A stretch of 64,000 nt of DNA from contig NZ_CP108100.1 of NCBI RefSeq assembly GCF_036195045.1, positions 5,270,001 to 5,334,000 of the forward strand. The letters run 5' to 3'. Each line of letters opens with the position of its first letter. Within the stretch, counting starts at the first letter, position 1. A program made the position numbers and the translations under genes. Below are positions 3,894-40,657 of the stretch, in pieces. This DNA is from Streptomyces sp. NBC_00236. Lineage in GTDB: Bacteria > Actinomycetota > Actinomycetes > Streptomycetales > Streptomycetaceae. The notes under the pieces are model-generated. The model saw nothing but the letters and a program-made list of their open reading frames with translations. It searched no databases and was not told the origin of the DNA.

Positions 3894-3909
3894 CTCTATG
3901 CGCGTAGAG
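3894..3909 (+). promoter_or_regulatory. Palindromic nucleoside-gene operator overlapping the deoA promoter
   Basis: CTCTATGCGCGTAGAG is a 16-bp near-perfect palindrome with one mismatched pair. It matches the motif CTACGCGCGTAG seen before add, deoC and the purine nucleoside phosphorylase. Its right edge merges with a -10-like TAGAGT (3905-3910), so a protein bound here would block the promoter. The binding protein is unknown. Confidence 0.6.
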
Positions 3910-3960
3910 TCAACGGGACTCATGCGTACGCACACGTACCGGCCGGAAGGACTCCAGGAC

Positions 3961-5238
3961 ATGGACGCCATCTCCGTCATCCGCACCAAGCGGGACCGAG
4001 GCGAGCTGACCCCCGAGCAGATCGACTGGGTCATCGACGCGTACACCCGCGGCGAGGTCGCCGACGAGCAGATGTCCGCGCTGGCCATGGCGATCCTGCT
4101 GAACGGCATGAACCGCACGGAGATCGCCCGCTGGACCGCCGCGATGATCGCCTCCGGCGAGCGGATGAACTTCGACGCGCTCTCCCGCCCCACCACCGAC
4201 AAGCACTCCACCGGCGGCGTCGGCGACAAGATCACCCTGCCGCTCGCCCCGCTGGTCGCCGCCTGCGGCGCCGCCGTACCGCAGCTCAGCGGCCGCGGCC
4301 TCGGCCACACCGGCGGCACCCTCGACAAGCTGGAGTCCATCCCCGGCTGGCGCGCGCACCTCTCGAACGCCGAGATGCTGAACGTCCTCGACACCACGGG
4401 CGCCGTCATCTGCGCGGCCGGTGACGGCCTGGCCCCCGCCGACAAGAAGCTGTACGCGCTCCGCGACGTCACCGGCACCGTCGAGGCCATCCCGCTCATC
4501 GCCAGCTCGATCATGTCCAAGAAGATCGCCGAAGGCACCGGCGCACTCGTCCTGGACGTCAAGGTCGGCTCCGGCGCCTTCATGAAGACCATCGAGGACG
4601 CCCGCGAACTGGCCTCCACCATGGTCGCGCTGGGCACCGACAGCGGAGTGCGCACGGTCGCCCTGCTCACCGACATGGCCACCCCGCTCGGCCTCACCGC
4701 CGGCAACGCCCTGGAGGTCCGCGAATCCGTGGACGTCCTGGCCGGCGGCGGTCCGAAGGACGTCGTCGACCTCACCCTGGCGCTCGCCCGCGAGATGCTG
4801 GACGCGGCCGGACTCAAGGACGCCGACCCGGAGAAGGCCCTCGCGGACGGCTCCGCGATGGACGTCTGGCGCCGGATGATCTCCGCCCAGGGCGGCGACC
4901 CGGACGCCACGCTCCCGGTGGCCCGCGAGCAGCACGTCGTCACGGCCCCGTCCTCCGGCGTCCTGACCCGCCTCGACGCCTACGACATCGGTGTGGCCGC
5001 CTGGCGCCTCGGTGCGGGCCGCGCCCGCAAGGAGGACCCGGTCCAGGCCGGCGCGGGCATCGAACTGCACGCGAAGCCGGGCGACGAGGTCACGGCGGGA
5101 ATGCCGCTGCTGACGCTGCACACGGACACCCCGGAGAAGTTCGAGTACGCGCTGAAGGCGCTGCCGGACGCGTACGACATCGCACCGTCCGGCACGCCGT
5201 TCGCCGCCGTCCCGGTGGTGCGGGAACGTATCGCCTGA
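3961..5238 (+). CDS. deoA: Thymidine (pyrimidine nucleoside) phosphorylase
   Basis: A 425-residue enzyme that splits thymidine, deoxyuridine and probably uridine with phosphate into base and (deoxy)ribose-1-phosphate. The family signature lies around residue 80: KHSTGGVGDK (phosphate and ribose contacts) and SGRGLGHTGGTLDKLESIPG. Start choice: ATG 3961 has GGAAGGA about 12 bases upstream and gives the usual family N-terminus MDAISVIRTKRDRG. In-frame ATGs at 3898 and 3922 lie within or at the edge of the operator/promoter. Deoxyribose-1-phosphate made here needs the mutase and DeoC encoded about 32 kb away, which carry the same operator. Confidence 0.95.
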   Translation: MDAISVIRTKRDRGELTPEQIDWVIDAYTRGEVADEQMSALAMAILLNGMNRTEIARWTAAMIASGERMNFDALSRPTTDKHSTGGVGDKITLPLAPLVAACGAAVPQLSGRGLGHTGGTLDKLESIPGWRAHLSNAEMLNVLDTTGAVICAAGDGLAPADKKLYALRDVTGTVEAIPLIASSIMSKKIAEGTGALVLDVKVGSGAFMKTIEDARELASTMVALGTDSGVRTVALLTDMATPLGLTAGNALEVRESVDVLAGGGPKDVVDLTLALAREMLDAAGLKDADPEKALADGSAMDVWRRMISAQGGDPDATLPVAREQHVVTAPSSGVLTRLDAYDIGVAAWRLGAGRARKEDPVQAGAGIELHAKPGDEVTAGMPLLTLHTDTPEKFEYALKALPDAYDIAPSGTPFAAVPVVRERIA

Positions 5239-5270
5239 CCTGCTCCGACCTGCGACTTCCTCATACAGGT

Positions 5271-5304
5271 GAACGGGACCGGTGGACTGCCACCGGTCCC
5301 GTTC
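5271..5304 (+). terminator. Terminator after deoA
   Basis: A perfect 15-bp inverted repeat, 5271-5285 with 5290-5304, with a 4-base loop (ACTG), lies 32 bases after the deoA stop. It has no T-run, as is usual in Streptomyces. Confidence 0.8.
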
Positions 5305-5346
5305 GGCATGCTGGACTCGGTGACGCACCGATAAGAGGAGACCGCC

Positions 5347-5937
5347 ATGAGCGCACTCACCGTCGACCCCGCGCCGGGCTTCGGCCAGGACTGGGACGAC
5401 CTCGTCCGGATCTGGGAGGAGACGGACGCGCCCGAGGGCTGCAAGGTGGAGATCATCGAGGGGATCGTCACTGTGTCGCCACCGCCGTCCAAGGACCACA
5501 ACACCACCGCTGAACTGCTCCAGCGCAGGCTCTACGGCGTCATCCCGGAGGACTGGGGGATCTACCAGACCCTCGGCGTCTCCGTGCCGGGCCGGGCCGG
5601 ACTCTACATCCCCGACCTCGTCGTGCTGCCGCGCGCGGTCGCCACCGGGCCGGGCAATCGCGTCCCGGCGGAAGAGGCACGGCTCGTCGTCGAGATCACC
5701 TCGCAGGCCAACGCCAACCACGACCGCATCGGCAAGGTGCACGGCTACGCGAAGGCCGGCGTCGAGCTCTTCCTCCTCCTCGACCCGTGGCACTCCGGCC
5801 GCCCCACCGCCACGCTGTACGGGGAGCCGGCCGACGGCACGTACCGCGTGCTGGACACGGTCGAGTACGGCGAGAAGCTGAGGCTGCCCGAGCCGTTCGG
5901 GCTGGACCTGGACACCGGGGTGTTCCCCGTCAGCTGA
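5347..5937 (+). CDS. Uma2-family (DUF820) PD-(D/E)XK nuclease-like protein
   Basis: A 196-residue protein of the Uma2 family. The nuclease-like core is visible: a Glu in the first helix (KVEIIEG), YIPDLVVLP supplying the PD motif, LVVEITS supplying the E-x-hydrophobic step, and a downstream Lys/Tyr helix (KVHGYAKAGVELFLLLDP). AGAGGAG sits 10 bases before the ATG. Uma2 genes are numerous in streptomycetes and their role is unknown. It appears monocistronic, standing between the deoA terminator and a STAS gene. Confidence 0.85.
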   Translation: MSALTVDPAPGFGQDWDDLVRIWEETDAPEGCKVEIIEGIVTVSPPPSKDHNTTAELLQRRLYGVIPEDWGIYQTLGVSVPGRAGLYIPDLVVLPRAVATGPGNRVPAEEARLVVEITSQANANHDRIGKVHGYAKAGVELFLLLDPWHSGRPTATLYGEPADGTYRVLDTVEYGEKLRLPEPFGLDLDTGVFPVS

Positions 5938-5969
5938 GACGCATCCCCGGCCCGCGATGAGTTTCACCC

Positions 5970-6296
5970 GTGCCACCGGTCTCCCAGGGTATGGATTCCT
6001 TGCCACCGGCCGTCCTCGTCGTTTCCGGGCGCCTCACCCGGGCCGGTACGCCCCGCCTCTGTGCCGATCTGGAGGCGATACTGACCGCTTCGGAAGCCGC
6101 CGTGGTCGACTGCGACGTGGGCGGCATCGTCGAGCCGGACCTGGCCTCCGTCGAGGCGATCGCCCGTCTGTCCCTGGTCGCGCGCAGGGCGGGCGGCAGG
6201 CGGCTGCGGCTGCGCGGGACGCCGCCCGAGCTTCAACTCCTCCTTGATCTGGTGGGGTTGAGCGAGGTGGTCGGGCTGGCGGAGACGCCGCTGTAG
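5970..6296 (+). CDS. STAS-domain (anti-anti-sigma-like) protein
   Basis: A 108-residue single-domain protein. The pattern PAVLVVSGRLTRAG, then VVDCDVGGIVEPDLASVEAIARL, then RRLRLRGTPPELQLLLDLVGL follows the beta/alpha order of STAS domains, with the phosphoacceptor region read as DLASVEAIARL. It may be an anti-anti-sigma factor or an MlaB-like lipid-transport subunit. No anti-sigma kinase is adjacent. GTG 5970 and ATG 5991 are both possible starts, and neither has a strong ribosome binding site. Confidence 0.65.
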   Translation: MPPVSQGMDSLPPAVLVVSGRLTRAGTPRLCADLEAILTASEAAVVDCDVGGIVEPDLASVEAIARLSLVARRAGGRRLRLRGTPPELQLLLDLVGLSEVVGLAETPL

Positions 6297-6448
6297 CGGC
6301 GGATCCGCGGAGTGCCGACGCGGCTGCGTCGAATCCTCTCGCCGGACAGGGGCACGCTCGCACCCGTCGCAGGGCCGGGCCCAGTCGGTGTTTTGGGCCC
6401 GGAGCGGGCCCGTGGACCTATGGTCGGATCGCCGTCGCCTCCCTAGTG

Positions 6449-6462
6449 TCTATGCGTGTAGA
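6449..6462 (+). promoter_or_regulatory. Degenerate copy of the nucleoside operator upstream of the M23 peptidase
   Basis: TCTATGCGTGTAGA differs from TCTACGCGCGTAGA at two positions and overlaps a -10-like TAGATA (6459-6464). It may be a weak or diverged site for the same regulator, or simply a promoter with chance resemblance. Confidence 0.3.
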
Positions 6463-6467
6463 TAAAT

Positions 6468-6510
6468 GACGTGGGCACCTCAAGCGCTGGGTTCGCGAGG
6501 CGCCCACGTC
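6468..6510 (+). other. Stem-loop in the leader of the M23 peptidase gene
   Basis: Arms 6468-6481 and 6497-6510 pair over 14 bp with one A-C mismatch and a 15-base loop. It starts about where the TAGATA promoter would begin transcription and ends 40 bases before the ATG. A structured 5' leader is plausible. The bases after it (GCCCGAATCAGCAGACCT) recall the 3' end of ydaO c-di-AMP riboswitches, but the conserved 5' half is absent. Confidence 0.5.
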
Positions 6511-6550
6511 GACAACTCGTGCCCGAATCAGCAGACCTGAGGGAGCGAAC

Positions 6551-7525
6551 ATGTGCGATTCCTGCGCAGCGGCGGAAGAGGCGACGGCGGAGGACCCGGA
6601 GACGCGCGCCGGCCTGTCCCGGCGGGGACTGATCGCCGGGACGGGGCTCGGGCTCGGCCTTGCCGCGCTGGGCCTCGCGAGCGGAGCCACGACGGCCTCC
6701 GCGGCCACGGCGAAGAACGGCAAATGGGCCAATCCCGCGCTCGGCCGGTTCCCCGCCGGCGGACACTACGGGGCTTCCCGGGGTGGCGCCGCGCACGCCG
6801 GTCAGGACGTCTCCAACTCGACGGGCACCGGTGTCTACGCGGCGGCCGCAGGCACGGTTGTCCGACGTTCGTGGGGAGGCGGCCTGACCGGCCGGACCGG
6901 CAACGCCCTGGTCATCGCGCACGGCAACGGCCAGTACACCTACTACGGTCACCTCAACGCCTACCGGGTCGCACTCAACGCCAAGGTCGCCGCGGGCCAG
7001 CGCATCGCCGACATGGGAGCCACCGGCAACGTGACGGGTCCCCACCTGCACTTCGAGACACACACGGGACGGCTCGGCGCCACGACCAACCCGGTCACCT
7101 TCATGGCGGCCCGGGGCGTCCACCTGGGCGGCGGCTGGCCCCGGATCGACCCCGGCGCGAGCGGCAGGACAGTCGTCGTCATTCAGTTCCTGATGAAGCA
7201 GCGCGGCTACGGCCTGGTCGCCGACGGGCAGTACGGCTCGGTCTCGTCCAACGCCGTCAAGCGCTTCCAGAAGGCCAAGGGCCTGGTGGCCGACGGCCAG
7301 GTGGGACCGGCGACCTGGCCGCATCTCGTCTACACCCTGCGAAAGGGCAGCGGATCCCACGTCCGGGCCCTGCAGAACGCGCTCAACAAGCGCAGCGCCG
7401 GTCTGGCGGTCGACGGCACGTTCGGCCCCGTCACCACGAGCGCCGTGCGCTCCTACCAGAAAGCCAACCGGTTGGTCGTCGACGGAGAGGCAGGCCCGGT
7501 GACCTGGCGGGCACTGGTCGGCTGA
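6551..7525 (+). CDS. Secreted M23 metallopeptidase with two peptidoglycan-binding domains
   Basis: A 324-residue cell-wall lytic enzyme. The N-terminus has a twin-arginine signal (SRRGLIAG, then a hydrophobic stretch ending near ASA at about 52). The M23/LytM domain (about 65-195) shows the zinc motifs HAGQDV and PHLHFE, so glycyl or D-alanyl peptide cross-links are the likely target. Two PG_binding_1 repeats follow, each with the DGxxGxxT-type motif (VADGQYGSVSSNAVKRFQ and VDGTFGPVTTSAVRSYQ). The leader carries a stem-loop and an operator-like site. GGGAG lies 7-12 bases before the ATG. Confidence 0.92.
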   Translation: MCDSCAAAEEATAEDPETRAGLSRRGLIAGTGLGLGLAALGLASGATTASAATAKNGKWANPALGRFPAGGHYGASRGGAAHAGQDVSNSTGTGVYAAAAGTVVRRSWGGGLTGRTGNALVIAHGNGQYTYYGHLNAYRVALNAKVAAGQRIADMGATGNVTGPHLHFETHTGRLGATTNPVTFMAARGVHLGGGWPRIDPGASGRTVVVIQFLMKQRGYGLVADGQYGSVSSNAVKRFQKAKGLVADGQVGPATWPHLVYTLRKGSGSHVRALQNALNKRSAGLAVDGTFGPVTTSAVRSYQKANRLVVDGEAGPVTWRALVG

Positions 7526-7531
7526 CGGTGT

Positions 7532-7567
7532 GCCGGGCCCGTCGGCAATGCTCCGGCGAGGCCCGGC
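7532..7567. terminator. Weak hairpin between convergent genes
   Basis: Eight-base arms (7532-7539, 7560-7567; GCCGGGCC/GGCCCGGC) with a 20-base loop lie between the convergent peptidase and small membrane protein genes. It could act in both directions. Confidence 0.35.
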
Positions 7568-7588
7568 GCGATCGGGCCGAACCTCGGA

Positions 7589-8997: not shown

Positions 8998-9096
8998 CGC
9001 TCTCGCTCACCCCTGTTGCGCTGTGACACCGCTCACTTCAGCACTTCGGAAGCTACCGCAGGGCACTGACAACGGGGGCGGGAAGAGCAGAAGCGG

Positions 9097-9822: not shown

Positions 9823-9907
9823 AACCGCCAACTCCCCTTCGCGCACAGTGCGGTGATTCCGCCTGCTAGACGCGCGTCGGGGAGTGGATGGTTGTGCGCC
9901 GAATGTC

Positions 9908-12243: not shown

Positions 12244-12253
12244 GGGACACGGC

Positions 12254-16981: not shown

Positions 16982-17391
16982 GACTGAATCCCACCCTCTG
17001 CTGGCCTTGCGCTTCGGCCGTCGGCGCACGGTCCGGTGCGCTGCCGCAGCCGGAATGCCGTAGCCCTCCGACGGCGGGGCAGGTCCGGCCCGACCGGGAT
17101 TGAATCACCAGATCGCCCCCCGCGCCACCACGGGCCGAAATGCGCTGTCCCGGACGTAACTGCAGGTCAAAGGCCTGGAGGCAATGTGGCGTGTGTCACT
17201 GTGAGGTGTGGGTGATCGGTCGCTTAATCGCAGGTTGCGGATGATTTGTAGATCTTCTTTGAATCTTCTCGCTGATCTAGCCTCTGCTCGGACTGTCTGT
17301 CACCGGCCTGTGCCGAAGCCGTGAGCGGCGGTCTGCTGCGCTGCCGGACTCGGAAGGCGGCTGTCCTTCAGGGGTGGGAGTGAGCTTTGTG
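16982..17391. other. Non-coding region upstream of the RHS gene
   Basis: About 400 bases between divergent genes. It is clearly more AT-rich around 17220-17280 than the flanking coding DNA. A short inverted repeat TAGATC (17249-17254) / GATCTA (17274-17279) lies in the AT-rich part, about 115 bases before the RHS start, and may belong to its promoter. I see no coding frame of normal codon use. Confidence 0.5.
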
Positions 17392-20300
17392 ATGTCCGGA
17401 CGGGTGAGACAACTGGCGCTGGTGGTGTCCGGCGCGCTGGTGACAGGGTTGCTGGGCGCCCAGGTACCGGCCGTGGCCGCGGCGTCGGCCACGGTGGCGA
17501 CGGCCCGGGACCAGGTGAACGTGGCCGCGCAGAAGCCCGGCCGGGCGCGCGGTGACGGAGCAGCCGAACCGACTGCGACGAAGGCGCTCACGCCGGTATG
17601 GCCCAAGAAGGCCAGAGCCCGGCTGGACCTGTCGGCCGTTCCCGTCGGGTCGGCCCTGCCCGTGGCTCCCGAGGGCGCCGCCGATCCCACGAAGGCCGCC
17701 GCCGTCCGGGTCGGACCCGCACCGCGCGGTGAGGCCCGGATCAAGTCCGAGGCCGTGCAGGTCCCCGCCGACTCGCCGTCCGACGTGGACGTCGAGGTGC
17801 TCGACCGGGCGGCACTCGCCCCGGTCGGTGCGGCAGGGCTCGGCGTGAAGGTGACGCGGCGCGACGGCGAGGCCGAGGCCGGCCCCGTCGAAGTCACCCT
17901 GGACTACTCCGACTTCAAGTACGCCTACGGGGGTTCCTTCGCCTCGCGCCTGCGCCTGGTCAAGCTGCCCGCCTGCGCTCTCACGACCCCCGAGGCGAAG
18001 GGCTGCTCGGCCGGCAGTACGGACTTCGTGAAGGCCACGAACGACGTCGAGTCCGGAACGCTCACGGCCACCGTCCAGGCGGACGCCGACCCTGCGGCGA
18101 CCGCGCCGCCGGTGCTCGACCAGGACCTGTCCGGGCTGCGCTCGGGGCAGACGCTGCAGGCGTCGGCGGCCGTCGCGTCCGGCACGGTGTACGCGCTCGC
18201 CTCCTCCTCGTCGTCGGACGCGGGTGACTACCGGGCATCCACGCTGAGCCCCGCCGGTACGTGGAACGTGTCCACCGGGTCGGGCGCGTTCACGTACAAC
18301 CTGCCGATCCAGGTGCCCGAGCCGCCGACGGGCGACGCCCCCGGCCTCGCACTCTCGTACAACTCGCAGTCCGTCGACGCGATGACGTCCTCGGAGAACA
18401 CCCAGGCCTCCTGGTCCGGTCTCGGATGGAACCTGGGGATCGGCTTCATCGAAAGGCGTTACCGGGGATGCCAGGACGACGGGACGGGAACCGGCTGGGT
18501 CGGTGACCTCTGCTGGGACTCGCCGAACTCGGCCAAGGAGATCGACGGCGCGGTCTACGTCATCAGTCTCAACGGCGTGACGTCCGAACTGATCCAGGAC
18601 AACGGCGGCACCGGCTGGTACCACGTCAAGGACGACCCGGGCTGGCGGGTCCAGCACCTGACCGGTGGGCACGGGTCGGACGACGAGTACTGGGTCGTCT
18701 CCAGCCAGGAGGGCATGCGCTACTACTTCGGCTGGGGCCGCTCGGAGCGGACCGGCGGGGCCACGAGCTCGGTCCTGACCGTGCCGGTGTTCGGCAACGA
18801 CGCCGGCGAGCCCGGTTACAGCGGCGGTGTCGGTGTGCAGACGCAGGCCTACCGCTGGGGCCTGGACCGGGTGGTGGACGCGCAGGAGGTGGAGTCGGCC
18901 TACTTCTACGAGAAGGAGACCAACCACTACCGCTCCGTACTGCTCGGGGACAAGGCGCGGTCCTACGACTCCGCCGCCTACCCCGTCCGGATCGAATACG
19001 GCTGGGCCTCGCAGATCCCCGGCGCGCAGCTGCCCGCCAAGGTGGACCTGTCCTACGTCGGGCGCTGCGTGGAACGCATGGCCGACAAGGACCCGCTGGC
19101 GAGCGAACCGGCCGCGTGCCCCGGAATTTCCACCCACGCCGCTTCCTACCCCGACGTACCCACCGACCTCATGTGCGACGGCACATCGGCCGACGACGGC
19201 TGTCGCACCATCACGGGTGAGACCTACTCGCCGACGTTCTTCGCGACCAGGATGCTGTGGGACATCAAGACCTATGTCCGCGACAACGACAGCGCGGCAT
19301 GGGATCCGGCGATGCAGTACCAGATGAAGTACGGGCTGCCGAATCCCGAAGGCACCGTCGACAGCACGCTGTGGCTGGACTACATCCAGCGCAAGGGGTA
19401 CGGCGACGGTGACGACATCACGCTGCCGACGATCAACATCAACGGCGAGTGGCGCGACAACCAGCTCGGCGGTGGGGTGCTCAACTTCCGCCGGGTGACG
19501 CAGATCCACGGTGACCTCGGGTCGTTCACCGACGTCACCTATCGCAACTACGACGAGCAGGACCGCTGCGACATCGACAGCCTGCCCAGCGAGTCGAACA
19601 ACACCCAGGCCTGCTTCAGGCAGAAGTGGACGCCCGAGGGCGCGACCGAGGCGAAGACCGGGTGGTTCAAGAAGTACGTCGTCTCGAAGGTGAGCGTGGA
19701 TCCCGGCCCGGGGGCCGGGGCGGCGAACGACGGCGATCCGGTGATGACCACCACCTACGACTATGTGGGCAAGCCGGCCTGGGCGTTCCCCAACGACCCG
19801 CTGACCAAGGACGAGGACGAGTCCTGGACGGACTGGCGTGGTTACCAGCAGGTCGAGGTGCACACCGGGACCAAGGACAACGCCGCGTCCGTCTACCACT
19901 GGCTGTACCGCGGCATGGACGGCGACCGCACGTCGAAGACGGACCCTTCCGCGACGCGGAGCGTGACCGTTTCGGACGGGGACAACGCGACCTCCAGTGT
20001 GACCGACCATGCCTGGCTGAGCGGCCGGGAGCTGGAGACCAGCCTGCGGGACGGCTCGGGTCAGTCGCACCAGCGGGTCTGGCACGAGTACTGGACCCAC
20101 AACACCGCGCAGTACGACGGTCTGCCCGACGCCCGGTTCGTGCGTGAGTCCAAGACCACCACGCACGAACTGACGTCCACCGGCTGGCGCGAGCACATCG
20201 TCAAGAACGAGTTCGACGACGCCGAACCGGCCAGCACCAAGTACGGCCTGCCGATGCGCACCAACGACTGGGGTCTCACCGACACGGACGACAACCGCTG

Positions 20301-23300
20301 TGTCACGTACGGCCGCGCCTACAACACCGACCTGTTCACCGATTCCGCCGTGCAGCGCTGGATGGTGATGACGGACGAGACCCGGCACTACGCGGCCGAC
20401 TGCGCGGCACGCGGCACGGCCAACGCGGACGCCTACGAGGTGACGCTGTACGACGGCGCCACCTCCGTGGACACCAACAAGCCCGTCGACGGCAACATCA
20501 CGGCGTCGCGGAGGTACACCGACTCCACGCACTACCGGCAGACGACGTTCGGCTACGACGCGGCCGGGCGGATGACCTCCAGCACCGACGGCAAGCAGCA
20601 GACGACGACCACGGTGTACAGCCCGGCGACCTCGTGGCCCGTGGACGGGGTCAGGACGACCGTCCCCGACCCCGACGGGACCGGCCCGTCGACGGCGTCG
20701 AGCAGTACCACCTGGTACTCACGACTGTGGGGCACTCCGTACCGCATCCTCGACGCCAACGGCCGCACCACCCGGGTCGTCTCCGACTCGGTGGGGCGTA
20801 CCCATCAGGTGTTCAAGCCCTCGCAGATCGGCGCCTACCCCGACGGAACCCCGTCGCTGCAGTTCGACTACGCGGTCACCACGCAGGACAACAGCGAGGG
20901 TGTGCCGGACCTGGTCGCGGGAACCCCGCCGAAGATCACGACCCGGACGCTCCAGACCGGATCGACGGTCGCGACCAGTCACAGTTTCACCGACGGCCTC
21001 GGCCGGGTCAGGGAGACGCAGACCCCCGCGGCCACCGGAACCGGACGGACCGTCGTCTCCACGCGCTACGACACGTCGGGCAACGTGACGGGGACCAGCG
21101 CGCCGTTCTACAACACCGGCACTGCCGGCTCGGGCATGGTGCTCCCCACCGTCGACAGCCTCCCGTCCTACACGGACCTCGTCGTCGACTATGCGGGGCA
21201 CACCACCCAGACCCGGCTGATGACCAAGGGCAGTCCCCAGATCCAGAACCAGGCGTCGACCAACTACCACGGTGACTACACCACCGCCGTTCCTCCCGTG
21301 GGCGCCCGCACGAACACGTACACGAACGTCTTCGGCGAGATCACCAGGATCGTGGAGTTCGGTCCCTCGACCTACAGCACCCTGTACGAGTACACCCGCA
21401 GCGGTGATCTCGCGAAGGTCACTGACGCGAAGGGCAACATCACCCGCTACACGTACAACTGGCTGGGCGAACGGCTCTCCACGACCGACCCCGACGCGGG
21501 TACCTCGTCCGTCACGTACGACGAGAACGGCAACGTCGCGACCGTCACCGACGCCAACAACGTGACGCTGACCCACACCTACGACCGTCTCGACCGGCCG
21601 TTGACCATCCAGAACGGCGCCACGCTGCTGTCGAGCAGGACGTACGACTCCGTGCCCGGGGGAATCGGTCTGCAGGCCTCCGCCACGGCCTACTCCGGGG
21701 GCTTCGGCTACCGGACCGACGTGACCGGCTACGACGTCAACGGCCAGCCGACCGGCACCCAGGTCGTCATCCCCGCGGACGGATCGGGACTGGAGGGCAC
21801 CTACGCGGCGTCCTACGAGTACGACGCCGCCGGACGCCAGAGCAGCATCAGCTACCCCGCCACGGCAGGCCTGCCGGCGGAGAAGGTGACGAGTACCTAC
21901 GACGCCTTCGGCCTGCCCGAGAAGGTCCTCAGCCCTCTCGCCACCTACGTCGACGCCACGGACTTCGACAACATCGGCCGGCTCGTCGGACGCAGTTACG
22001 GAACCGCTGCCACCACGCCCACGACGGCCCGGCGCACCTACACCTACGACGACGTCACCGGTACCGGCTGGCTGAAGAACATCAGCACCACCACGAGCAG
22101 CAAGGGCATCGTCCAGAACGACGACTACCTCCGTGACGCCGGCGGGCAGCTCACCGACCTGACGGACAGACTCACCTCGCAGCGCCAGTGCTACACCTAC
22201 GACGAACTCAACCGACTCTCGAAGGCGTGGACGTCCGCAAGCGCGGCCGGGTGCGGCGGGCCGTTCAGCCCCGACCTCGCCACGGGGACCGATCCGTACC
22301 AGCTCGACTACACCTACGACGGCATCGGCAACCTGCAGAAGGTCACCAGCACGACGGCTGCGGGCAGCACGGCGCGGGACTACGTCTATCCCGGCTACTC
22401 CGCCGACCAGCAGACCTACACGCCCGGTGCGGCCCGCCCGCACGCGGTCGCCGGCGTCAAGTCACCGGCCGGCACCGACACCTACGCCTACGACAACGCG
22501 GGTCAGATGACCTCGCGCACGGTCGGTGGCGTGACCACCGGCTTCGTCTGGAACGAACTCCACCACCTCGCCGGGACGACGGGGGCGGACGCCGGAAGCT
22601 ACGTCTACGACGCGGAGGGCAATCTCCTGCTCCGCAGGAGCAAGGACGGCAACACCCTCTACCTGGGCAGCCAAGAGGTGAGAAAGGCCGGCAGCACAGC
22701 CGCCCGGGGCACCCGGTACTACGCCGGCGGGACCAGCGCCGTCGCCATGCGCGTCGCCGGTACCGGTGACGGCACCGTCACCTGGCTGATGTCGGACCAA
22801 CAGGCCTCCACACAGGTCGCCGTGGATGTGGCGACCGGTGCGGCGGTCCGCAGACGCTACCTTCCGTTCGGCGCGCAGCGCGGCAGTTCCGGACTGCCGG
22901 CGGGAACCGACCGGGGATTCCTCGGCAAGTCGGAGGACAGCGTCCTGGGCATCAGTATTCTCGGTGCCCGCCTCTACGACGCGAACCTGGGCCGTTTCCT
23001 CAGCGCCGACCCGGTCAGTACACCGTACGACCCACAGAACATGAGCGCCTACAGCTACGCGCGCAACAACCCCGTGGGCCTGTCGGACCCGAGCGGCATG
23101 GCCCTTCCGGAATGCCTGACGGGCGAGATCAAATGCCAGGGCGGACTGCCGGTCAGCAGCGGAGGCAAGGACCCCGCACCTTCGGCCCCCTCCATCAAGT
23201 ACGACAAGGGGTTCCGTGCCGACATCGTCCATGACTCGCACGGGAACAAGTACCGGATAGGCGAAGAGCCGGGCATCACCCGTGACGAGATCGACGTCCG

Positions 23301-23913
23301 CAACTACATGAACGACCGCGAACGGCAGCAGGGCACCTTCTCGGACGGCAAGGACGGCGGCAGTGGTACGGAATACCGGCCGGTCAATCCCATCAAGGGG
23401 CAGAAGCGCGGCAACGGCACGTCCGACCTGGTGCGGCTCACCTGGAAGGACGGCAAGTTGATCAAGGTGGACTCGGTCGACATCTACACGCCGCTGGAGG
23501 GGAAGAACGGGCCGGCTCCGATCCTCAAGAGCGTCGGCAAAAAGGTCGGGCAGACGGATGAGGTGATCGTCTACTACAAGGAGGGAACGGCCGCGGCGGC
23601 GGACAAGATAGGAAAGGCCCTCCCCAGCGATCTGAAGCTGAACGACGTGCACATCGTGGCGGAGGACGGAAAGTACTTCCGCAGCTTCGGCGGTGCGGGC
23701 TCCGCCCTCGGTCCTCCCGAGACCCCGTCCACGCCCCGGCCGAGCGTCGACCCCCCGAAGACGGGCGGTACGCGGGCGCCCATGGGCGGAAAGATGATGC
23801 GCGGCGCGGGTATTCTCGGCGAACTGTTCCTTTGGTACGACGCGTACAAGGTCGCCAAGGGCGACGACGTCTGCCCGTGGCCCATGGAATGTGCTTCACC
23901 GGAAATCCTTTAG
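17392..23913 (+). CDS. Secreted RHS-repeat polymorphic toxin
   Basis: A giant protein of about 2,173 residues. A signal peptide (VRQLALVVSGALVTGLLGAQVPAVAAAS) leads. An SpvB/TcdB-like shell domain begins near 300 (GDAPGLALSYNSQSVD), then many YD repeats (for example DAKGNITRYTYNWLGERLS), then the RHS-associated core ending LSADPVSTPYDPQNMSAYSYARNNPVGLSDPSG near 1,900. The last 270 residues differ in style and form the presumed toxin. Its GTSDLVRLTWKDGK and VDSVDIYTP, followed by IVYYK and VHIVAEDGKYF, resemble the CdiA_C tRNase/nuclease fold. ATG 17392 has GGGAG 11 bases upstream; GTG 17374 is an alternative. The following DUF4253 gene is the candidate antidote. Confidence 0.93.
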   Translation: MSGRVRQLALVVSGALVTGLLGAQVPAVAAASATVATARDQVNVAAQKPGRARGDGAAEPTATKALTPVWPKKARARLDLSAVPVGSALPVAPEGAADPTKAAAVRVGPAPRGEARIKSEAVQVPADSPSDVDVEVLDRAALAPVGAAGLGVKVTRRDGEAEAGPVEVTLDYSDFKYAYGGSFASRLRLVKLPACALTTPEAKGCSAGSTDFVKATNDVESGTLTATVQADADPAATAPPVLDQDLSGLRSGQTLQASAAVASGTVYALASSSSSDAGDYRASTLSPAGTWNVSTGSGAFTYNLPIQVPEPPTGDAPGLALSYNSQSVDAMTSSENTQASWSGLGWNLGIGFIERRYRGCQDDGTGTGWVGDLCWDSPNSAKEIDGAVYVISLNGVTSELIQDNGGTGWYHVKDDPGWRVQHLTGGHGSDDEYWVVSSQEGMRYYFGWGRSERTGGATSSVLTVPVFGNDAGEPGYSGGVGVQTQAYRWGLDRVVDAQEVESAYFYEKETNHYRSVLLGDKARSYDSAAYPVRIEYGWASQIPGAQLPAKVDLSYVGRCVERMADKDPLASEPAACPGISTHAASYPDVPTDLMCDGTSADDGCRTITGETYSPTFFATRMLWDIKTYVRDNDSAAWDPAMQYQMKYGLPNPEGTVDSTLWLDYIQRKGYGDGDDITLPTININGEWRDNQLGGGVLNFRRVTQIHGDLGSFTDVTYRNYDEQDRCDIDSLPSESNNTQACFRQKWTPEGATEAKTGWFKKYVVSKVSVDPGPGAGAANDGDPVMTTTYDYVGKPAWAFPNDPLTKDEDESWTDWRGYQQVEVHTGTKDNAASVYHWLYRGMDGDRTSKTDPSATRSVTVSDGDNATSSVTDHAWLSGRELETSLRDGSGQSHQRVWHEYWTHNTAQYDGLPDARFVRESKTTTHELTSTGWREHIVKNEFDDAEPASTKYGLPMRTNDWGLTDTDDNRCVTYGRAYNTDLFTDSAVQRWMVMTDETRHYAADCAARGTANADAYEVTLYDGATSVDTNKPVDGNITASRRYTDSTHYRQTTFGYDAAGRMTSSTDGKQQTTTTVYSPATSWPVDGVRTTVPDPDGTGPSTASSSTTWYSRLWGTPYRILDANGRTTRVVSDSVGRTHQVFKPSQIGAYPDGTPSLQFDYAVTTQDNSEGVPDLVAGTPPKITTRTLQTGSTVATSHSFTDGLGRVRETQTPAATGTGRTVVSTRYDTSGNVTGTSAPFYNTGTAGSGMVLPTVDSLPSYTDLVVDYAGHTTQTRLMTKGSPQIQNQASTNYHGDYTTAVPPVGARTNTYTNVFGEITRIVEFGPSTYSTLYEYTRSGDLAKVTDAKGNITRYTYNWLGERLSTTDPDAGTSSVTYDENGNVATVTDANNVTLTHTYDRLDRPLTIQNGATLLSSRTYDSVPGGIGLQASATAYSGGFGYRTDVTGYDVNGQPTGTQVVIPADGSGLEGTYAASYEYDAAGRQSSISYPATAGLPAEKVTSTYDAFGLPEKVLSPLATYVDATDFDNIGRLVGRSYGTAATTPTTARRTYTYDDVTGTGWLKNISTTTSSKGIVQNDDYLRDAGGQLTDLTDRLTSQRQCYTYDELNRLSKAWTSASAAGCGGPFSPDLATGTDPYQLDYTYDGIGNLQKVTSTTAAGSTARDYVYPGYSADQQTYTPGAARPHAVAGVKSPAGTDTYAYDNAGQMTSRTVGGVTTGFVWNELHHLAGTTGADAGSYVYDAEGNLLLRRSKDGNTLYLGSQEVRKAGSTAARGTRYYAGGTSAVAMRVAGTGDGTVTWLMSDQQASTQVAVDVATGAAVRRRYLPFGAQRGSSGLPAGTDRGFLGKSEDSVLGISILGARLYDANLGRFLSADPVSTPYDPQNMSAYSYARNNPVGLSDPSGMALPECLTGEIKCQGGLPVSSGGKDPAPSAPSIKYDKGFRADIVHDSHGNKYRIGEEPGITRDEIDVRNYMNDRERQQGTFSDGKDGGSGTEYRPVNPIKGQKRGNGTSDLVRLTWKDGKLIKVDSVDIYTPLEGKNGPAPILKSVGKKVGQTDEVIVYYKEGTAAAADKIGKALPSDLKLNDVHIVAEDGKYFRSFGGAGSALGPPETPSTPRPSVDPPKTGGTRAPMGGKMMRGAGILGELFLWYDAYKVAKGDDVCPWPMECASPEIL

Positions 23914-25563: not shown

Positions 25564-25677
25564 CGCGGTCTCTGTTACGTATCGGCGGGCCGCGCCCGGC
25601 GGCGCTCCGCGCGGGTGGGGCGCGGTCTCTGTTACGTATCGACGGGCGGCGTCCAGCGGCGCTCTACGCGCGTAGGC
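25564..25677. repeat. 57-bp tandem duplication in the add promoter region
   Basis: Two copies, 25564-25620 and 25621-25677, share CGCGGTCTCTGTTACGTATC exactly, and the next 25 bases with a few changes. The right copy ends in the intact operator CTACGCGCGTAG. The left copy has CTCCGCGCGGGT at the same place, a decayed operator. A third CTGTTACGT lies inverted at 25522-25531 next to the hydrolase start. Confidence 0.75.
25664..25675 (+). promoter_or_regulatory. Perfect palindromic operator upstream of add
   Basis: CTACGCGCGTAG is identical on both strands and lies 16 bases before the adenosine deaminase ATG. A -10-like TTAGAGT follows at 25679-25685, placing the transcription start at or near the ATG and suggesting a leaderless mRNA. 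The same 12-mer precedes deoC and the purine nucleoside phosphorylase. Confidence 0.65.
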
Positions 25678-25691
25678 GTTAGAGTGCGTGG

Positions 25692-26846
25692 ATGATGAGC
25701 CCGACCCTCAATGTGCCCGGCCAGGATCAGATCCGGCGTGCCCCCAAGGTCCTTCTCCACGACCACCTCGACGGCGGCCTGCGCCCCGGGACGATCGTCG
25801 AACTCGCGGCGGCGGGCGGCTACGACGGCCTCCCGGAGACCGATGCCGACAAGCTCGGCATCTGGTTCAGGGACGCCGCCGACTCCGGGTCGCTGGAGCG
25901 CTATCTGGAGACGTTCGCCCATACGTGTGCCGTGATGCAGACCCGCGACGCGCTGGTCCGGGTCGCCGCCGAGTGCGCGGAGGACCTGGCCGCCGACGGT
26001 GTCGTCTATGCCGAGATCCGGTACGCCCCCGAGCAGCACCTGGAAGCCGGTCTGAGCCTCGAAGAGGTCGTCGAGGCCGTCAACGAGGGCTTCCGCGAGG
26101 GAGAGCGCCGGGCGCGGAAGGACGGGAACCGGATCAGGGTGGGCGCGCTGCTCACCGCGATGCGGCACGCCGCACGGTCGCTGGAGATCGCGGAACTGGC
26201 CAACCGCTACCGCGAGCAGGGCGTCGTCGGCTTCGACATCGCGGGCGCCGAGGCGGGCTTCCCGCCCACCCGGCACCTCGACGCCTTCGAGTACCTCAAG
26301 CGCGAGAACAACCACTTCACCATCCACGCCGGCGAGGCCTTCGGCCTGCCGTCGATCTGGCAGGCCATCCAGTGGTGCGGCGCCGACCGGCTCGGCCACG
26401 GCGTCCGCATCATCGACGACATCGAGGTCGCCGAGGACGGCAGTGTGAAGCTCGGCCGCCTCGCCTCGTACGTACGGGACAAGCGCATCCCGCTGGAGCT
26501 CTGCCCGACGTCCAACCTGCAGACCGGTGCCGCGGCCTCGTACGCCGAGCACCCGATCGGGCTGCTGCGCCGGCTTCACTTCCGGGCCACCGTGAACACG
26601 GACAACCGGCTGATGAGCGGGACGAGCATGAGCCGGGAATTCGAGAAGCTGACCGAGACCTTCGGATACACGCTCGATGACATGCAGTGGTTCACCGTCA
26701 ATGCGATGAAATCAGCATTCATTCCTTTCGATGAACGTCTGGCGATGATCAGTGACGTCATCAAGCCCGGATACGCCGAGCTGAAGTCCGAATGGCTCTT
26801 CGAGCAGACCGCTGCGACCAGCGTGTCTACCTCGGTCGCCGGCTGA
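25692..26846 (+). CDS. add: Adenosine deaminase
   Basis: A 384-residue zinc enzyme converting (deoxy)adenosine to (deoxy)inosine. Motifs are HDHLDGG (zinc ligands), TIHAGEAFG (catalytic Glu), DRLGHGV and [16 protein letters not shown], where NTDN takes the place of the usual TDDP stretch as in actinobacterial Add. No ribosome binding site precedes the ATG and the -10-like element is 6-7 bases upstream, so translation is probably leaderless. Inosine made here is a substrate for the phosphorylase at 39.8-40.6 kb, which carries the same operator. Confidence 0.95.
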
Positions 26847-33014: not shown

Positions 33015-33155
33015 AGAACACAAGTGTGAGGCATTGACCCGCACAGGGGATCCCCGGAGGTCCTGTTGGTATCCGGCATCACACCTCAACTACTCTGTGC
33101 ACTCAACCGATTACTCGATTGATGGTTCGAATCGGCCCGATCAGGTGGGAACTTC

Positions 33156-33572: not shown

Positions 33573-33578
33573 CGCGAA

Positions 33579-33617
33579 GCGGCCCGCGCCCCGGATTCCT
33601 TCCAGGGCGCGGGCCGC
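33579..33617. terminator. Bidirectional terminator
   Basis: Perfect 13-base arms GCGGCCCGCGCCC (33579-33591) and GGGCGCGGGCCGC (33605-33617) with a 13-base loop lie between the convergent secreted-protein and aldehyde dehydrogenase genes. Confidence 0.8.
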
Positions 33618-33630
33618 TGCCGTGTGTGCG

Positions 33631-36007: not shown

Positions 36008-36012
36008 GGGAA

Positions 36013-36969
36013 TCAGTCCACCGTCACGTAATCGGGGCCGGAGTAACGGCCGGTGCTGAGCTTCTGGCGCTGCATCAGCAGGTCGTTCAGCAGGCTGGAG
36101 GCGCCGAAACGGAACCAGTGGCTGTCCAGCCAGTCCTCGCCCGCCGTCTCGTTCACCAGCACCAGGAACTTGATCGCGTCCTTGGAGGTGCGGATGCCGC
36201 CGGCCGGCTTCACGCCGATCTGGATGCCGGTCTGCGCGCGGAAGTCGCGCACCGCCTCCAGCATCAGCAGGGTGTTCGCGGGTGTGGCGTTGACGCCGAC
36301 CTTGCCGGTCGACGTCTTGATGAAGTCCGCGCCGGCCAGCATCCCGAGCCAGGAGGCCCGGCGGATGTTGTCGTACGTGGACAGCTCGCCGGTCTCGAAG
36401 ATCACCTTCAGCCGGGCCCGGCCGCACTCGGCCTTCACGGCGAGGATTTCCTCGTACACCTTCAGATAGCGGCCGGAGAGGAAGGCGCCGCGGTCGATCA
36501 CCATGTCGATCTCGTCGGCCCCGGCCGCCACGGCGTCGCGGACGTCCGCGAGCTTGACGTCGAGTGCGGCGCGCCCGGCGGGGAAGGCCGTCGCGACGGA
36601 CGCCACCTTCACGCCGGAACCGGCCAGGGCGGCCACCGCGGTCGCCGCCATGTCGGGGTAGACGCAGACCGCCGCGGTGTGCGGGGTCGTGCGGTCGGTG
36701 GGATCGGGATGGACGGCCTTGGCGGCGAGCGCGCGGACCTTGCCCGGGGTGTCCGAGCCTTCCAGCGTCGTCAGGTCGATCATCGAAATGGCGAGGTCGA
36801 TGGCGTACGCCTTGGCCGTCGTCTTGATCGAACGGGTTCCGAGCGAGGCGGCGCGCGCTTCGAGGCCGACGGCGTCGACGCCGGGCAGCCCGTGCAGGAA
36901 GCGGCGCAGCGCACTGTCGGACGCCGTCGCGTCGGCGAATGCGGGAGCAGTGGTGGGCATGGTCACCAC
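36013..36969 (-). CDS. deoC: Deoxyribose-phosphate aldolase
   Basis: A 318-residue class I aldolase cleaving 2-deoxyribose-5-phosphate to glyceraldehyde-3-phosphate and acetaldehyde. The Schiff-base Lys lies in GADFIKTSTGKVG and the second Lys in IGVKPAGGIRTSKDA; the substrate motif ADEIDMVIDRG is also present. It is the longer, ALDH-associated form of the family. The operator 36980-36991 is only 11 bases from GTG 36969, so a leaderless start is likely; ATG 36960 is also possible. Confidence 0.95.
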   Translation of the reverse strand: MVTMPTTAPAFADATASDSALRRFLHGLPGVDAVGLEARAASLGTRSIKTTAKAYAIDLAISMIDLTTLEGSDTPGKVRALAAKAVHPDPTDRTTPHTAAVCVYPDMAATAVAALAGSGVKVASVATAFPAGRAALDVKLADVRDAVAAGADEIDMVIDRGAFLSGRYLKVYEEILAVKAECGRARLKVIFETGELSTYDNIRRASWLGMLAGADFIKTSTGKVGVNATPANTLLMLEAVRDFRAQTGIQIGVKPAGGIRTSKDAIKFLVLVNETAGEDWLDSHWFRFGASSLLNDLLMQRQKLSTGRYSGPDYVTVD

Positions 36970-36979
36970 ATGAGCATAT

Positions 36980-36991
36980 CTACGCGCGTAG
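36980..36991 (-). promoter_or_regulatory. Perfect palindromic operator upstream of deoC
   Basis: CTACGCGCGTAG again, with CTGTACAGG three bases further upstream (minus strand), a second element shared with the purine nucleoside phosphorylase promoter. The right edge merges with TAGATATGCT, which offers -10 hexamers TAGATA or TATGCT. Confidence 0.65.
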
Positions 36992-37140
36992 CGGCCTGTA
37001 CAGGGGCCCAGGTCGGACGCGTATCGCGCGGCGGCGCGGCGGCGGCGTACGCGTGTCCGGAGCCCGCCCCGCCGGACTCCGGACGCGTGTCCGGGCGGCC
37101 GCCCCCGCGTCCGCCGCGCCCGTCAGGCAGAATCGGGCTC

Positions 37141-37779: not shown

Positions 37780-37861
37780 CGGGCCAACAGCCGGCGGTCG
37801 CCGCGCGGACGGCGCAGGGGGACTCCGACCGCCGGGCGAACAGCGAGAAGCGTCCCCGCGG

Positions 37862-37902
37862 ACACCGGCTTCACGTACCTGATGCGTACGTGAAGCCGGT
37901 GT
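37862..37902. terminator. Strong bidirectional terminator
   Basis: Perfect 17-base arms (37862-37878 and 37886-37902) with a 7-base loop lie between the convergent PH-domain and phosphosugar mutase genes. Confidence 0.88.
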
Positions 37903-37917
37903 GCGGAACGCGAACGG

Positions 37918-39561
37918 TCAGATCCCGGCCGCGGCCGCCAGGTCCCGCTTGATGCCGGCCAGCAGCTCGGCGCCCTTCGCACGGGCCGCGGGCAGCTCGT
38001 CGGCCGAGCCGACCGGCACCACGACCTCCAGGTAGCACTTGAGCTTCGGCTCGGTGCCGCTCGGGCGGACGATCACCCGGGCGCCCTCCAGCCGATAGCG
38101 CAGCCCGTCGGTCGGCGGCAGCAGCTCCGTACCGTGCGACAGGTCCTCGGCCGACGTGACGGCCAGGCCCGCGAGTGCGGCCGGCGGCTGCTCGCGCAGG
38201 CGGCGCATGGCGTCCGCGATGACGGACAGGTCCTCGACCCGGACCGACAGCTGGTCGGTGGCGTGCAGCCCGTGTTCCAGGGCGAGGTCGTCCAGCAGGT
38301 CGAGCAGGGTGCGGCCCTGCTCCTTGAGTACGGAGGCGAGTTCGGCGACCAGCAGCGCGGCCGTTATGCCGTCCTTGTCGCGGACGCCGTCCGGGTCGAC
38401 GCAGTAGCCGAGCGCCTCCTCGTAGCCGTACCGCAGGCCCTCCACGCGGGCGATCCACTTGAAGCCGGTCAGCGTCTCCTCGTGACCGAGGCCCGCCTTC
38501 TGCGCGATCCGGCCGAGGAGGGACGACGACACGATCGACTCGGCGAACACGCCGCTGACACCGCGGCGGACCAGGTGGGCGGCGAGCAGCGCGCCGACCT
38601 CGTCACCACGCAGCATCCGCCAGCCGCCGTCCACGGCCGGGTCGGGGACGGCGACGGCGCAGCGGTCCGCGTCCGGGTCGTTGGCGATGACGAGGTCCGG
38701 GTCCGAGCGGCGCGCGGTGGCGAACGCGAGGTCCATCGCGCCGGGCTCCTCCGGATTGGGGAACGCGACGGTGGGGAACGCGGGGTCGGGCTCGGCCTGC
38801 TCGGCGACGAGGACCGGGGCGGGGAAGCCGGCGCGGTCGAAGGCGGCGGTGAGCACGGAGGCGCCGACGCCGTGCATGGCGGTGTAGACGACGCGGGCGG
38901 TGCGCGGCGATCCCGCGTCCAGGACGGCGTCCGTACGGGCCAGATAGGCGTCCAGGACCTCGTCGCCGAGGGTCTCCCAGCCGCTGTCGGGGCGGGGCAC
39001 GGTGTCGAGCGGGCCGACCGCGTCGATCGCGGCGGCGATCTCACCGTCGGCCGGCGGCACGATCTGCGAGCCGTCGCCGAGGTAGACCTTGTAGCCGTTG
39101 TCGCGCGGCGGGTTGTGACTGGCGGTCACCTCGACGCCCGCGACGGCCCCCAGATGCCTTATGGCGTAGGCCAGGACGGGGGTGGGGAGCGGGCGGGGGA
39201 GCACGGCGGCCCGCAGACCGGCGCCGGTCATCACGGCCGCGGTGTCCCGGGCGAAGTCGGTGGACTTGTAGCGGGCGTCGTAGCCGATGACGACGAGACC
39301 GCCGTCCTGCCCCTGGTCCTTCAGGTACGCGGCGAGCCCGGCGGCGGCCCGGATGACGACGGCGCGGTTCATCCGCATGGGCCCGGCGCCGATCTCACCG
39401 CGGAGTCCGGCGGTGCCGAACTGGAGCGTGCCGGCGAAGCGTGCCCCGAGCTCGTCGAGGTCCTCGGCGTCGATGAGCTTCGCGAGCTCGTCGCGGGTCT
39501 CGGGGTCGGGGTCCTCGGCGAGCCAGGTCCTGGCCCGGGCGATGAGGTTCTGCGTCGTCAC
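37918..39561 (-). CDS. Phospho-sugar mutase (phosphomannomutase/phosphopentomutase-like)
   Basis: A 547-residue alpha-D-phosphohexomutase. The phosphoserine loop reads VTASHNPPRDNGYKVY, the metal loop NDPDADRCA, the sugar loop EEALGYCVDP and the phosphate-binding loop RPSGTEPKLKCY. GTG 39561 is the start. Annotation could be phosphomannomutase or phosphoglucomutase. Because it sits between deoC and a purine nucleoside phosphorylase, a pentose-phosphate role (ribose-1-P to ribose-5-P, like PGM2) is the attractive alternative. Confidence 0.93.
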   Translation of the reverse strand: MTTQNLIARARTWLAEDPDPETRDELAKLIDAEDLDELGARFAGTLQFGTAGLRGEIGAGPMRMNRAVVIRAAAGLAAYLKDQGQDGGLVVIGYDARYKSTDFARDTAAVMTGAGLRAAVLPRPLPTPVLAYAIRHLGAVAGVEVTASHNPPRDNGYKVYLGDGSQIVPPADGEIAAAIDAVGPLDTVPRPDSGWETLGDEVLDAYLARTDAVLDAGSPRTARVVYTAMHGVGASVLTAAFDRAGFPAPVLVAEQAEPDPAFPTVAFPNPEEPGAMDLAFATARRSDPDLVIANDPDADRCAVAVPDPAVDGGWRMLRGDEVGALLAAHLVRRGVSGVFAESIVSSSLLGRIAQKAGLGHEETLTGFKWIARVEGLRYGYEEALGYCVDPDGVRDKDGITAALLVAELASVLKEQGRTLLDLLDDLALEHGLHATDQLSVRVEDLSVIADAMRRLREQPPAALAGLAVTSAEDLSHGTELLPPTDGLRYRLEGARVIVRPSGTEPKLKCYLEVVVPVGSADELPAARAKGAELLAGIKRDLAAAAGI

Positions 39562-39695
39562 GGTGTCCGCCTTTCCGGTTTCCGTTTCCGGGTGCGTGGT
39601 GCGTGGTGCGTGGGGGGATGCGGTGCGGGTGGTCGGGCCTGCGGCGCCTGTGTTCCCCTACCCGCCCCTTCCCGAACCCGGGGCCCGGCCCCGGA

Positions 39696-39757
39696 CCCCG
39701 CGCCTCGAACGCCGGCGGGGCTGACTCCTGAGCCCCTCCGGCGATTGGGGCGCGGGG
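39696..39757. repeat. Inverted copies of a Streptomyces-type GC-rich intergenic element
   Basis: Arms 39696-39722 and 39731-39757 are near complements built around (G)CTCCTC-GA-CGCCGGAGGGGC. A second palindrome GGGGGCAGCGCCCCC follows at 39762-39776. The same two units recur at 44.1 and 48.3 kb. It separates the mutase and phosphorylase genes and could act as a terminator. Confidence 0.7.
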
Positions 39758-39795
39758 GTACGGGGGCAGCGCCCCCGAGAAGGCGCCGCCCGCCG

Positions 39796-40620
39796 TCAGA
39801 TCCGGTCCAGGACCCTCGCCAGCAGCGACCCCATCCGGGTCGCCGAGTCGCGCCCCGCCTGCAGCACCTCTTCGTGGTTCAGCGGCTCCCCGCTCAGCCC
39901 CGCCGCCAGGTTCGTCACCAGGGAGATGCCCAGCACCTCCGCGCCCGCCTCGCGGGCCGCGATGGCCTCCAGCACGGTGGACATGCCGACGAGGTCGCCG
40001 CCCATCACGCGGACCATGTTGATCTCGGCCGGGGTCTCGTAGTGCGGGCCGGGGAACTGCACGTACACGCCCTCTTCGAGGGTCTCGTCGATCTCCTTGC
40101 ACAGCGCCCGCAGCCGCGGCGAGTACAGGTCGGTCAGATCGACGAAGTTGGCGCCGATGATCGGCGACGCCGCCGTGAGGTTGATGTGGTCGCTGATCAG
40201 GACCGGCTGTCCGGGGCGCATGCCCTCGCGCAGACCGCCGCAGCCGTTCGTCAGCACGATGGTCTTGCAGCCCGCGGCGACGGCGGTGCGCACCCCGTGC
40301 GACACGGCGGCGACGCCACGGCCCTCGTAGAAGTGCGTGCGGCCGAGGAAGACCAGGACGCGCTTCTCGCCGATGAGGTACGAGCGGATCGTGCCGCCGT
40401 GGCCCTCGACCGCGGGGGCGGGGAAACCGGGCAGGTCCGTCACCGGGAACTCGGCCTCCGGAGTGCCGAGCGCATCGCCGGCCGGCGCCCAGCCGGAACC
40501 CATCACGAGGGCGACGTCGTGGGTCTCGGCACCGGTCAGCTCGCGCAGGCGGGCAGCGGCGTCGGCGGCGGCGGCGTGCGGGTCGCCCTGGATGTGGTCC
40601 GGAATAACTGATGCGTTCAC
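39796..40620 (-). CDS. Purine nucleoside phosphorylase (trimeric type)
   Basis: A 274-residue enzyme splitting inosine and guanosine (and deoxy forms) with phosphate. Family motifs are [67 protein letters not shown] and [20 protein letters not shown]. These are those of the trimeric PunA/XapA class, not hexameric DeoD. The GTG start follows the shared operator by 25 bases. It works directly after adenosine deaminase and supplies (deoxy)ribose-1-phosphate to the adjacent mutase. Confidence 0.95.
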
Positions 40621-40645
40621 GCGGATGAGCGTAACCGCTGAATCC

Positions 40646-40657
40646 CTACGCGCGTAG
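40646..40657 (-). promoter_or_regulatory. Perfect palindromic operator upstream of purine nucleoside phosphorylase
   Basis: CTACGCGCGTAG with CTGTACAGG five bases upstream, as at deoC. The right edge forms TAGGGA, a possible -10 box 16 bases after TGTACA. Confidence 0.65.

Follow-up and report, generated by a model that had tools for sequence, protein, structure and literature searches.

Escherichia coli CytR and DeoR, as well as DeoR of Bacillus subtilis, control deoA, deoC, a nucleoside phosphorylase gene and uptake genes, and NupR of Bacillus thuringiensis, compared here by family and role on the available sections of its report (PMC9430930), also regulates nucleoside uptake but is of the GntR/HutC type. 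Two regulators of Streptomyces coelicolor bear on the present locus. For SCO4158, a suggested glnR regulator, the accessible part of one article cites effects on antibiotic pigments by title (Meng 2012) and mentions no nucleoside regulon (PMC9739823). SCO4158 and SCO4920 are both tabled among regulators responding to glucose in the portion seen of PMC4848846, and excerpts of a network study describe a module centred on SCO4920, with nucleoside and purine terms absent from that text (PMC3224704). The literature searched, which leaves out most subscription papers, yielded no published nucleoside regulator or regulon for Streptomyces or SCO4158. Here we analyzed a 64,000-nucleotide stretch of Streptomyces sp. 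NBC_00236 (NZ_CP108100.1, positions 5,270,001 to 5,334,000; hereafter the window), in which a palindrome with the half-sites TCTACGC and GCGTAGA marks separated nucleoside-salvage genes. We propose, with a probability of roughly 0.7, that a dimeric LacI-family repressor, encoded after glnR, uses this palindrome as its operator and would thereby shut down dispersed scavenging promoters together with purSQL.

An initial annotation of the window had described an exact 12-bp palindrome before add, deoC and the purine nucleoside phosphorylase (PNP) gene and a one-mismatch 16-bp form before deoA, and the positions were confirmed: CTACGCGCGTAG occurs exactly at 25664-25675, 36980-36991 and 40646-40657, and CTATGCGCGTAG lies before deoA at 3896-3907, within CTCTATGCGCGTAGAG. 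The distances given there (16 bases to add, 11 to deoC, 26 to PNP) agree with the sequence, deoC and PNP being on the minus strand. The genes and the sites, the latter identified by sequence match, are as follows.

3895-3908, plus strand: operator-like 14-mer TCTATGCGCGTAGA before deoA
3961-5238, plus strand: thymidine phosphorylase gene (deoA), probable start (NCBIfam 644.1 bits, cut-off 269)
25663-25676, plus strand: operator-like 14-mer TCTACGCGCGTAGG before add
25692-26846, plus strand: adenosine deaminase gene, add (NCBIfam 645.6 bits, cut-off 412)
36013-36969, minus strand: deoxyribose-phosphate aldolase gene, deoC (TIGR00126 175.2 bits, cut-off 117.3)
36979-36992, minus strand: operator-like 14-mer GCTACGCGCGTAGA between the deoC -35 and -10 boxes
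39796-40620, minus strand: PNP gene (TIGR01698 329.2 bits, cut-off 302.6)
40645-40658, minus strand: operator-like 14-mer TCTACGCGCGTAGG before PNP

Within the window, sites with up to two mismatches were not unusual in number (7, where 4.58 were expected; a count of 7 was reached in 12 of 100 shuffles). Significance comes from the whole genome (8,333,111 bases), with the reversed pattern as control. The exact 12-mer has three copies genome-wide, all inside the window (reversed pattern, 0). CTAYGCGCRTAG has five sites against one for its reverse, at deoA, add, deoC, PNP and a secreted ExeM/NucH-like nuclease, and the 14-mer TCTACGCGCGTAGA with up to two mismatches has 24 sites against 8. All eight one-mismatch copies of TCTACGCGCGTAGA lie upstream of nucleotide-metabolism genes, so that the sites are enriched before functionally related genes:

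deoA, add, deoC and PNP, one site each
purS, with purQ and purL behind it; each of the three exceeds the NCBIfam cut-off
an NCS2-type permease gene (Xan_ur_permease match)
a dihydropyrimidinase gene (TIGR02033 572.8 bits, cut-off 393.25)
a carbon-nitrogen hydrolase gene about 3 kb from the dihydropyrimidinase gene, a putative ureidopropionase by position (best NCBIfam model N-carbamoylputrescine amidase, below cut-off)

Five of the 16 two-mismatch sites precede an importer ABC gene, a 5'-nucleotidase-like gene, a 2',3'-cyclic-nucleotide phosphodiesterase/3'-nucleotidase-like gene (two sites) and the nuclease gene. Both nucleotidase-like proteins are secreted and score above Pfam and below NCBIfam cut-offs. 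Gene order agrees with that of S. coelicolor, in which SCO2015 (2',3'-cyclic-nucleotide 2'-phosphodiesterase-like) has a promoter region in common with pyk1 according to the available parts of PMC3293853 and PMC5839063. At the nuclease gene, the fifth CTAYGCGCRTAG site lies 37 bases ahead of the GTG start; the protein looks secreted and carries LTD and endonuclease/exonuclease/phosphatase domains (best NCBIfam model ExeM/NucH, 179.9 bits against a cut-off of 300). A ROK-family regulator gene is divergent from the nuclease gene, with the palindrome in between (L018 6600-8234). The site predicted at the importer operon left of the window was also found, as CTACGCGTGTAG before the ABC ATPase gene and CTACGCGCGTTA before bmpA; the importer operon and the two secreted nucleotidase genes hold weaker copies of the palindrome. 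The importer sites and the importer genes that reach into the window are listed below; the ABC proteins match NCBIfam models only below cut-off.

G000:C1:5269343, left of the window: site before the ABC ATPase gene
L019 6038-6049, left of the window: site before bmpA, with three mismatches
16-3439, plus strand: rest of the ABC ATPase gene and two permease genes of a nucleoside-type importer (NCBIfam)
3436-3840, plus strand: cytidine deaminase gene (cdd), last of the importer operon (NCBIfam above cut-off)

Taken as a sequence-based prediction, the nucleoside regulon with a repressor-type operator put forward in the initial annotation is well supported, and its probable membership is wider than the four genes named there, extending to the secreted nuclease and nucleotidases, purSQL, the NCS2-type permease and pyrimidine-base breakdown.

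Across genomes, the exact 12-mer was present in 80 of 81 Streptomycetaceae genomes and in 23 of 197 genomes of the class, comprising 16/16 of the genus and 7/181 others. CTAYGCGCRTAG occurred at least three times in each of 41 genus genomes, while the reversed pattern occurred about once in each (40 in 41 genomes). At the deoR loci, 79/80 had an exact palindrome 1.7-3.0 kb before deoR, which is the PNP position. In the genome without an exact copy (G244), the form at deoC is CTACGCGAGTAG and that at PNP is CTACGCGCGTTA; in taxa g91 and g94, where the genes were found, CTACGCGTGTAG stands at deoC and CTACGCGCATAG at PNP, with the exact form at add in g94. At add in other families, the palindrome was found at none of 21 loci from 20 genomes, the best copy having three mismatches. 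Another 26 sites from other genomes, exact or of the CTAYGCGCRTAG form, were also inspected, hand-picked among the matches listed. Three of the first six fell at the beginning of a second gene for adenosine deaminase (one protein checked: NCBIfam 565.8 bits, cut-off 412) and one was before purS by position; the next 20 comprised four at purS, four at a second add, two at add, one at deoC, one at an importer ATPase gene and eight elsewhere. The purS site was conserved in six genomes, so that conservation at orthologous promoters, as expected of a common operator, was observed both there and at the PNP position.

In seven genomes among the matches listed (L050, L052, L054, L178, L180, L183, L184), the palindrome lies inside the first codons of the second adenosine deaminase gene; the operator may therefore be written into coding sequence there. 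In the genus g103, three sites in three genomes (L189, L190, L191) precede a gene whose secreted product has Ig-like and MAM-like domains.

To place the sites relative to promoters, TANNNT boxes were read from the sequence and distances counted from the 14-mer start. The box lies at 10 bases for deoA, the nuclease and the LacI gene, 11 for bmpA, 14 for deoC, 17 for add and the 5'-nucleotidase and 25 for PNP; purS has one at 27 and another at 10, and that of the ABC gene at 30 is doubtful. The elements in the window are these.

3905-3910, plus strand: possible -10 box TAGAGT of deoA, overlapping the palindrome
25680-25685, plus strand: possible -10 box TAGAGT of a leaderless add transcript
36973-36978, minus strand: possible -10 box TATGCT of deoC, kept in the deoC consensus
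36997-37002, minus strand: TGTACA, probable -35 box of deoC, the initial annotation's CTGTACAGG
40628-40633, minus strand: possible -10 box TACGCT of a leaderless PNP transcript

The add and PNP transcripts thus look leaderless. The terminal TAG of the palindrome, which the initial annotation had placed in a possible -10 box at every gene, is part of a TANNNT box at deoA; at add and PNP the box is too far away, and at deoC TATGCT abuts the palindrome. A -10 role of TAG at all genes was rejected, as it holds at some promoters only. The CTGTACAG noted upstream of both deoC and PNP is shared in this genome, but among relatives TGTACA is kept at deoC only (48/54 contexts that a simple pattern assigned to deoC versus 2/80 remaining contexts, mostly PNP). 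It stands 18 bp before TATGCT in this genome, and we rejected CTGTACAGG as a second shared operator, since it reads as the deoC -35 box. The palindrome shifts between -35 and -10 at varying distances, which would fit a repressor better than an activator, and its overlap with the promoter suggests repression. The sites, their specificity, their conservation and their promoter placement are all features of the genome sequences.

The shape of the palindrome resembles LacI-family operators, and for this reason the 29 LacI genes of the genome were searched. The likeliest reader of the palindrome, rather than the nearby DeoR protein, appears from its own promoter to be the following gene, the same as SCO4158 of S. 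coelicolor by synteny (position after glnR in the part of PMC9739823 seen).

G000:C1:4490788-4491831, minus strand, outside the window: candidate LacI-family gene directly downstream of glnR

The neighbouring upstream gene encodes a GlnR_1st domain. The candidate protein plainly has a LacI helix-turn-helix (PF00356, 52.3 bits, cut-off 27) and a periplasmic-binding-protein-like effector domain (PF13377, 100.5 bits; PF00532, 83.0 bits). CcpA, RbsR and PurR are its nearest solved relatives, and all 18 NCBIfam models that it matched were below cut-off, among them RbsR (181.3 bits, cut-off 382), PurR (171.8, 501), CytR (158.2, 436) and CcpA (157.3, 442.35). The gene was found in 31/31 family genomes. 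Here it carries TCCATCCGCGTAGA 26 bases ahead of the second codon, and a copy with three (21 loci) or four mismatches stands at -25/-26 in 25 of 30 loci, the right half GCGTAGA being complete in 24. When the half-site was permuted in 420 ways, one of them the actual sequence, the actual palindrome alone reached 25 loci and the runner-up 7; none of 5000 random palindromes reached 25. Of the binders that the initial annotation had offered, its alternative of a LacI/GntR regulator elsewhere, in the form of a LacI protein, appears to fit much better than DeoR.

Outside the family, homologues of the candidate (E 1e-50 or better) were found in 2 of 23 genomes. One of these, G127, is, among the class genomes, alone outside the genus in having three exact palindromes and alone outside the family in having more than one. 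Its homologue (44-45%), with the same helix GTSTAVVSYV, is encoded 14.6 kb from one palindrome (L048 8062-8073), and this palindrome precedes an operon for PTPS, PfkB, radical-SAM and IMPDH/GMPR proteins, which resembles deazapurine clusters; the other two have no such genes behind them. The homologue in G126 has TCTAATCGTTTAGA before its own gene, with the outer bases and central CG the same.

We infer that the LacI protein binds these sites and represses. As a dimer it would occupy the -35/-10 region through the two half-sites and thereby shut genes for extracellular digestion (the ExeM/NucH-like nuclease, the 5'-nucleotidase and the cyclic phosphodiesterase/3'-nucleotidase), import (the Bmp/ABC importer and the NCS2-type permease), nucleoside breakdown (deoA, add, PNP and deoC), pyrimidine-base breakdown (dihydropyrimidinase and the neighbouring carbon-nitrogen hydrolase) and purSQL, while weakly repressing its own gene through the asymmetric copy. 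Because scavenging genes and purSQL have the site in common, our first guess for the effector is a purine-type co-repressor reporting nucleotide sufficiency, which would make sense of both breakdown and synthesis targets; a nucleoside-derived inducer is the second guess and may apply. A broader role for this LacI protein, beside glnR and kept across Streptomycetaceae, as a global switch coupling the digestion of extracellular DNA and nucleotides to uptake and salvage, to base breakdown and to purine synthesis de novo is a tentative proposal that we lean slightly against.

Several results weigh against a LacI-repressor operator. The 12-mer with up to one mismatch is at background in the genome (23 versus 29 in the control). 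Of the two-mismatch 14-mer sites, 11/16 have no nucleotide link and lie within coding sequence or before unrelated genes, including those for an M23 peptidase, a GH25 lysozyme-type protein and a DUF3103 protein; since the control gives 8 matches, these 11 approximate background. No TANNNT box was seen downstream of four regulon sites (cyclic phosphodiesterase, carbon-nitrogen hydrolase, dihydropyrimidinase, permease). The copy before the LacI gene, with its three or four mismatches, overlaps a -10 box TAGACT that is itself conserved and accounts for part of the conservation; it is absent in 5/30 loci (g91, g94, g99), where operators are still present. The candidate was picked after viewing the 29 LacI loci of one genome, and only this LacI gene was followed across genomes; at three other LacI loci, a copy with two or three mismatches occurs somewhere within 3 kb. 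G127 entered the search because of its palindromes, and only one of its three precedes an operon with purine-type enzymes. Control of breakdown genes and purSQL by one repressor would also be unusual. Beside the M23 peptidase gene, the copy is TCTATGCGTGTAGA at window positions 6449-6462, about 90 bases ahead of the gene and with two mismatches to the 14-mer.

That a third regulator binds the palindrome is unlikely. The regulators examined were the LacI genes of one genome and DeoR, and single sites have ROK, MarR, TetR and GntR-type genes nearby; these neighbours, however, adjoin one site each in one genome, no regulator gene was seen beside the 20 further sites in other genomes drawn from the matches listed, and a third regulator would leave the conserved copy before the LacI gene unexplained. 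Slightly less likely still is the neighbouring DeoR-family protein (SCO4920-type), which the initial annotation had named as a possible binder, as the repressor of the regulon.

43117-44070, plus strand: DeoR-family regulator gene, not favoured as binder (Pfam DeoRC and HTH_DeoR)

The gene is present in 81/81 family genomes, it is the deoR that the PNP palindrome precedes in 79/80 loci, and DeoR proteins control nucleoside genes elsewhere. Its own promoter, strongly conserved in 80 loci, has no palindrome, autoregulation being common but not obligatory. Of 13 class genomes outside the genus with DeoR homologues (E 1e-70 or better), 12 lack the exact palindrome, and SEVTVRRD in the recognition helix is unchanged in 8 of the 13, the eight that were read; in five outside-genus deoR regions, deoC, PNP and add were not found within 18 kb around. 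DeoR is thus an unlikely binder because its promoter lacks the site and same-helix homologues occur in families without the palindrome. A DeoR-controlled regulon is accordingly no longer favoured, the operator neither accompanying every close DeoR homologue nor standing before deoR. The deoR promoter itself (L067-L146, about 110 bases before deoR, window ~43007-43116) carries a separate element around CTTCTGTTATTCGGCGCAAACTGCTGAAA, which may be the operator to which DeoR binds. That the palindrome is a feature of promoters or of DNA structure and serves no regulator as operator is very improbable: it is always in core promoters here and its one-mismatch 12-mers are no commoner than control, but the common function of the marked genes, the symmetry, the changing distance to -10 and the occurrence in 80/81 family genomes versus 7/181 others speak against it.

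Other regulators identified in the window were two LysR proteins, an HTH_31/DUF5753 protein, a response regulator and sigma factors, and a 2179-residue open frame with RHS repeat lies among the salvage genes (17374-23913).

What emerges is a predicted regulon whose sites are specified, a probable role for a LacI protein found in 31/31 family genomes and a single account of the dispersed genes for nuclease, nucleotidases, importer and salvage enzymes. On the broader, slightly less than evenly likely proposal of a global switch, the set would form a combined purine-sufficiency and nucleic-acid-scavenging regulon, possibly recycling the DNA of dying hyphae, and the G127 homologue may have been acquired to control a deazapurine-like gene cluster. 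Nucleotide pools feed Streptomyces development and antibiotic production. An earlier computational report of the motif may exist; among the matches listed for the site letters in published texts, none was on the subject by title.

Compared with known systems, the proposed regulon resembles that of E. coli PurR in the LacI family of its candidate regulator, an even-centred palindrome with central CG and a pur gene among the targets. It differs in that the targets are mostly scavenging and breakdown genes, the PurR model is far below its cut-off and the operator bases are not the same. Unlike in the CytR/DeoR systems, secreted nucleases and nucleotidases, base breakdown and purSQL would here be placed under one operator, and the palindrome is specific to Streptomycetaceae.

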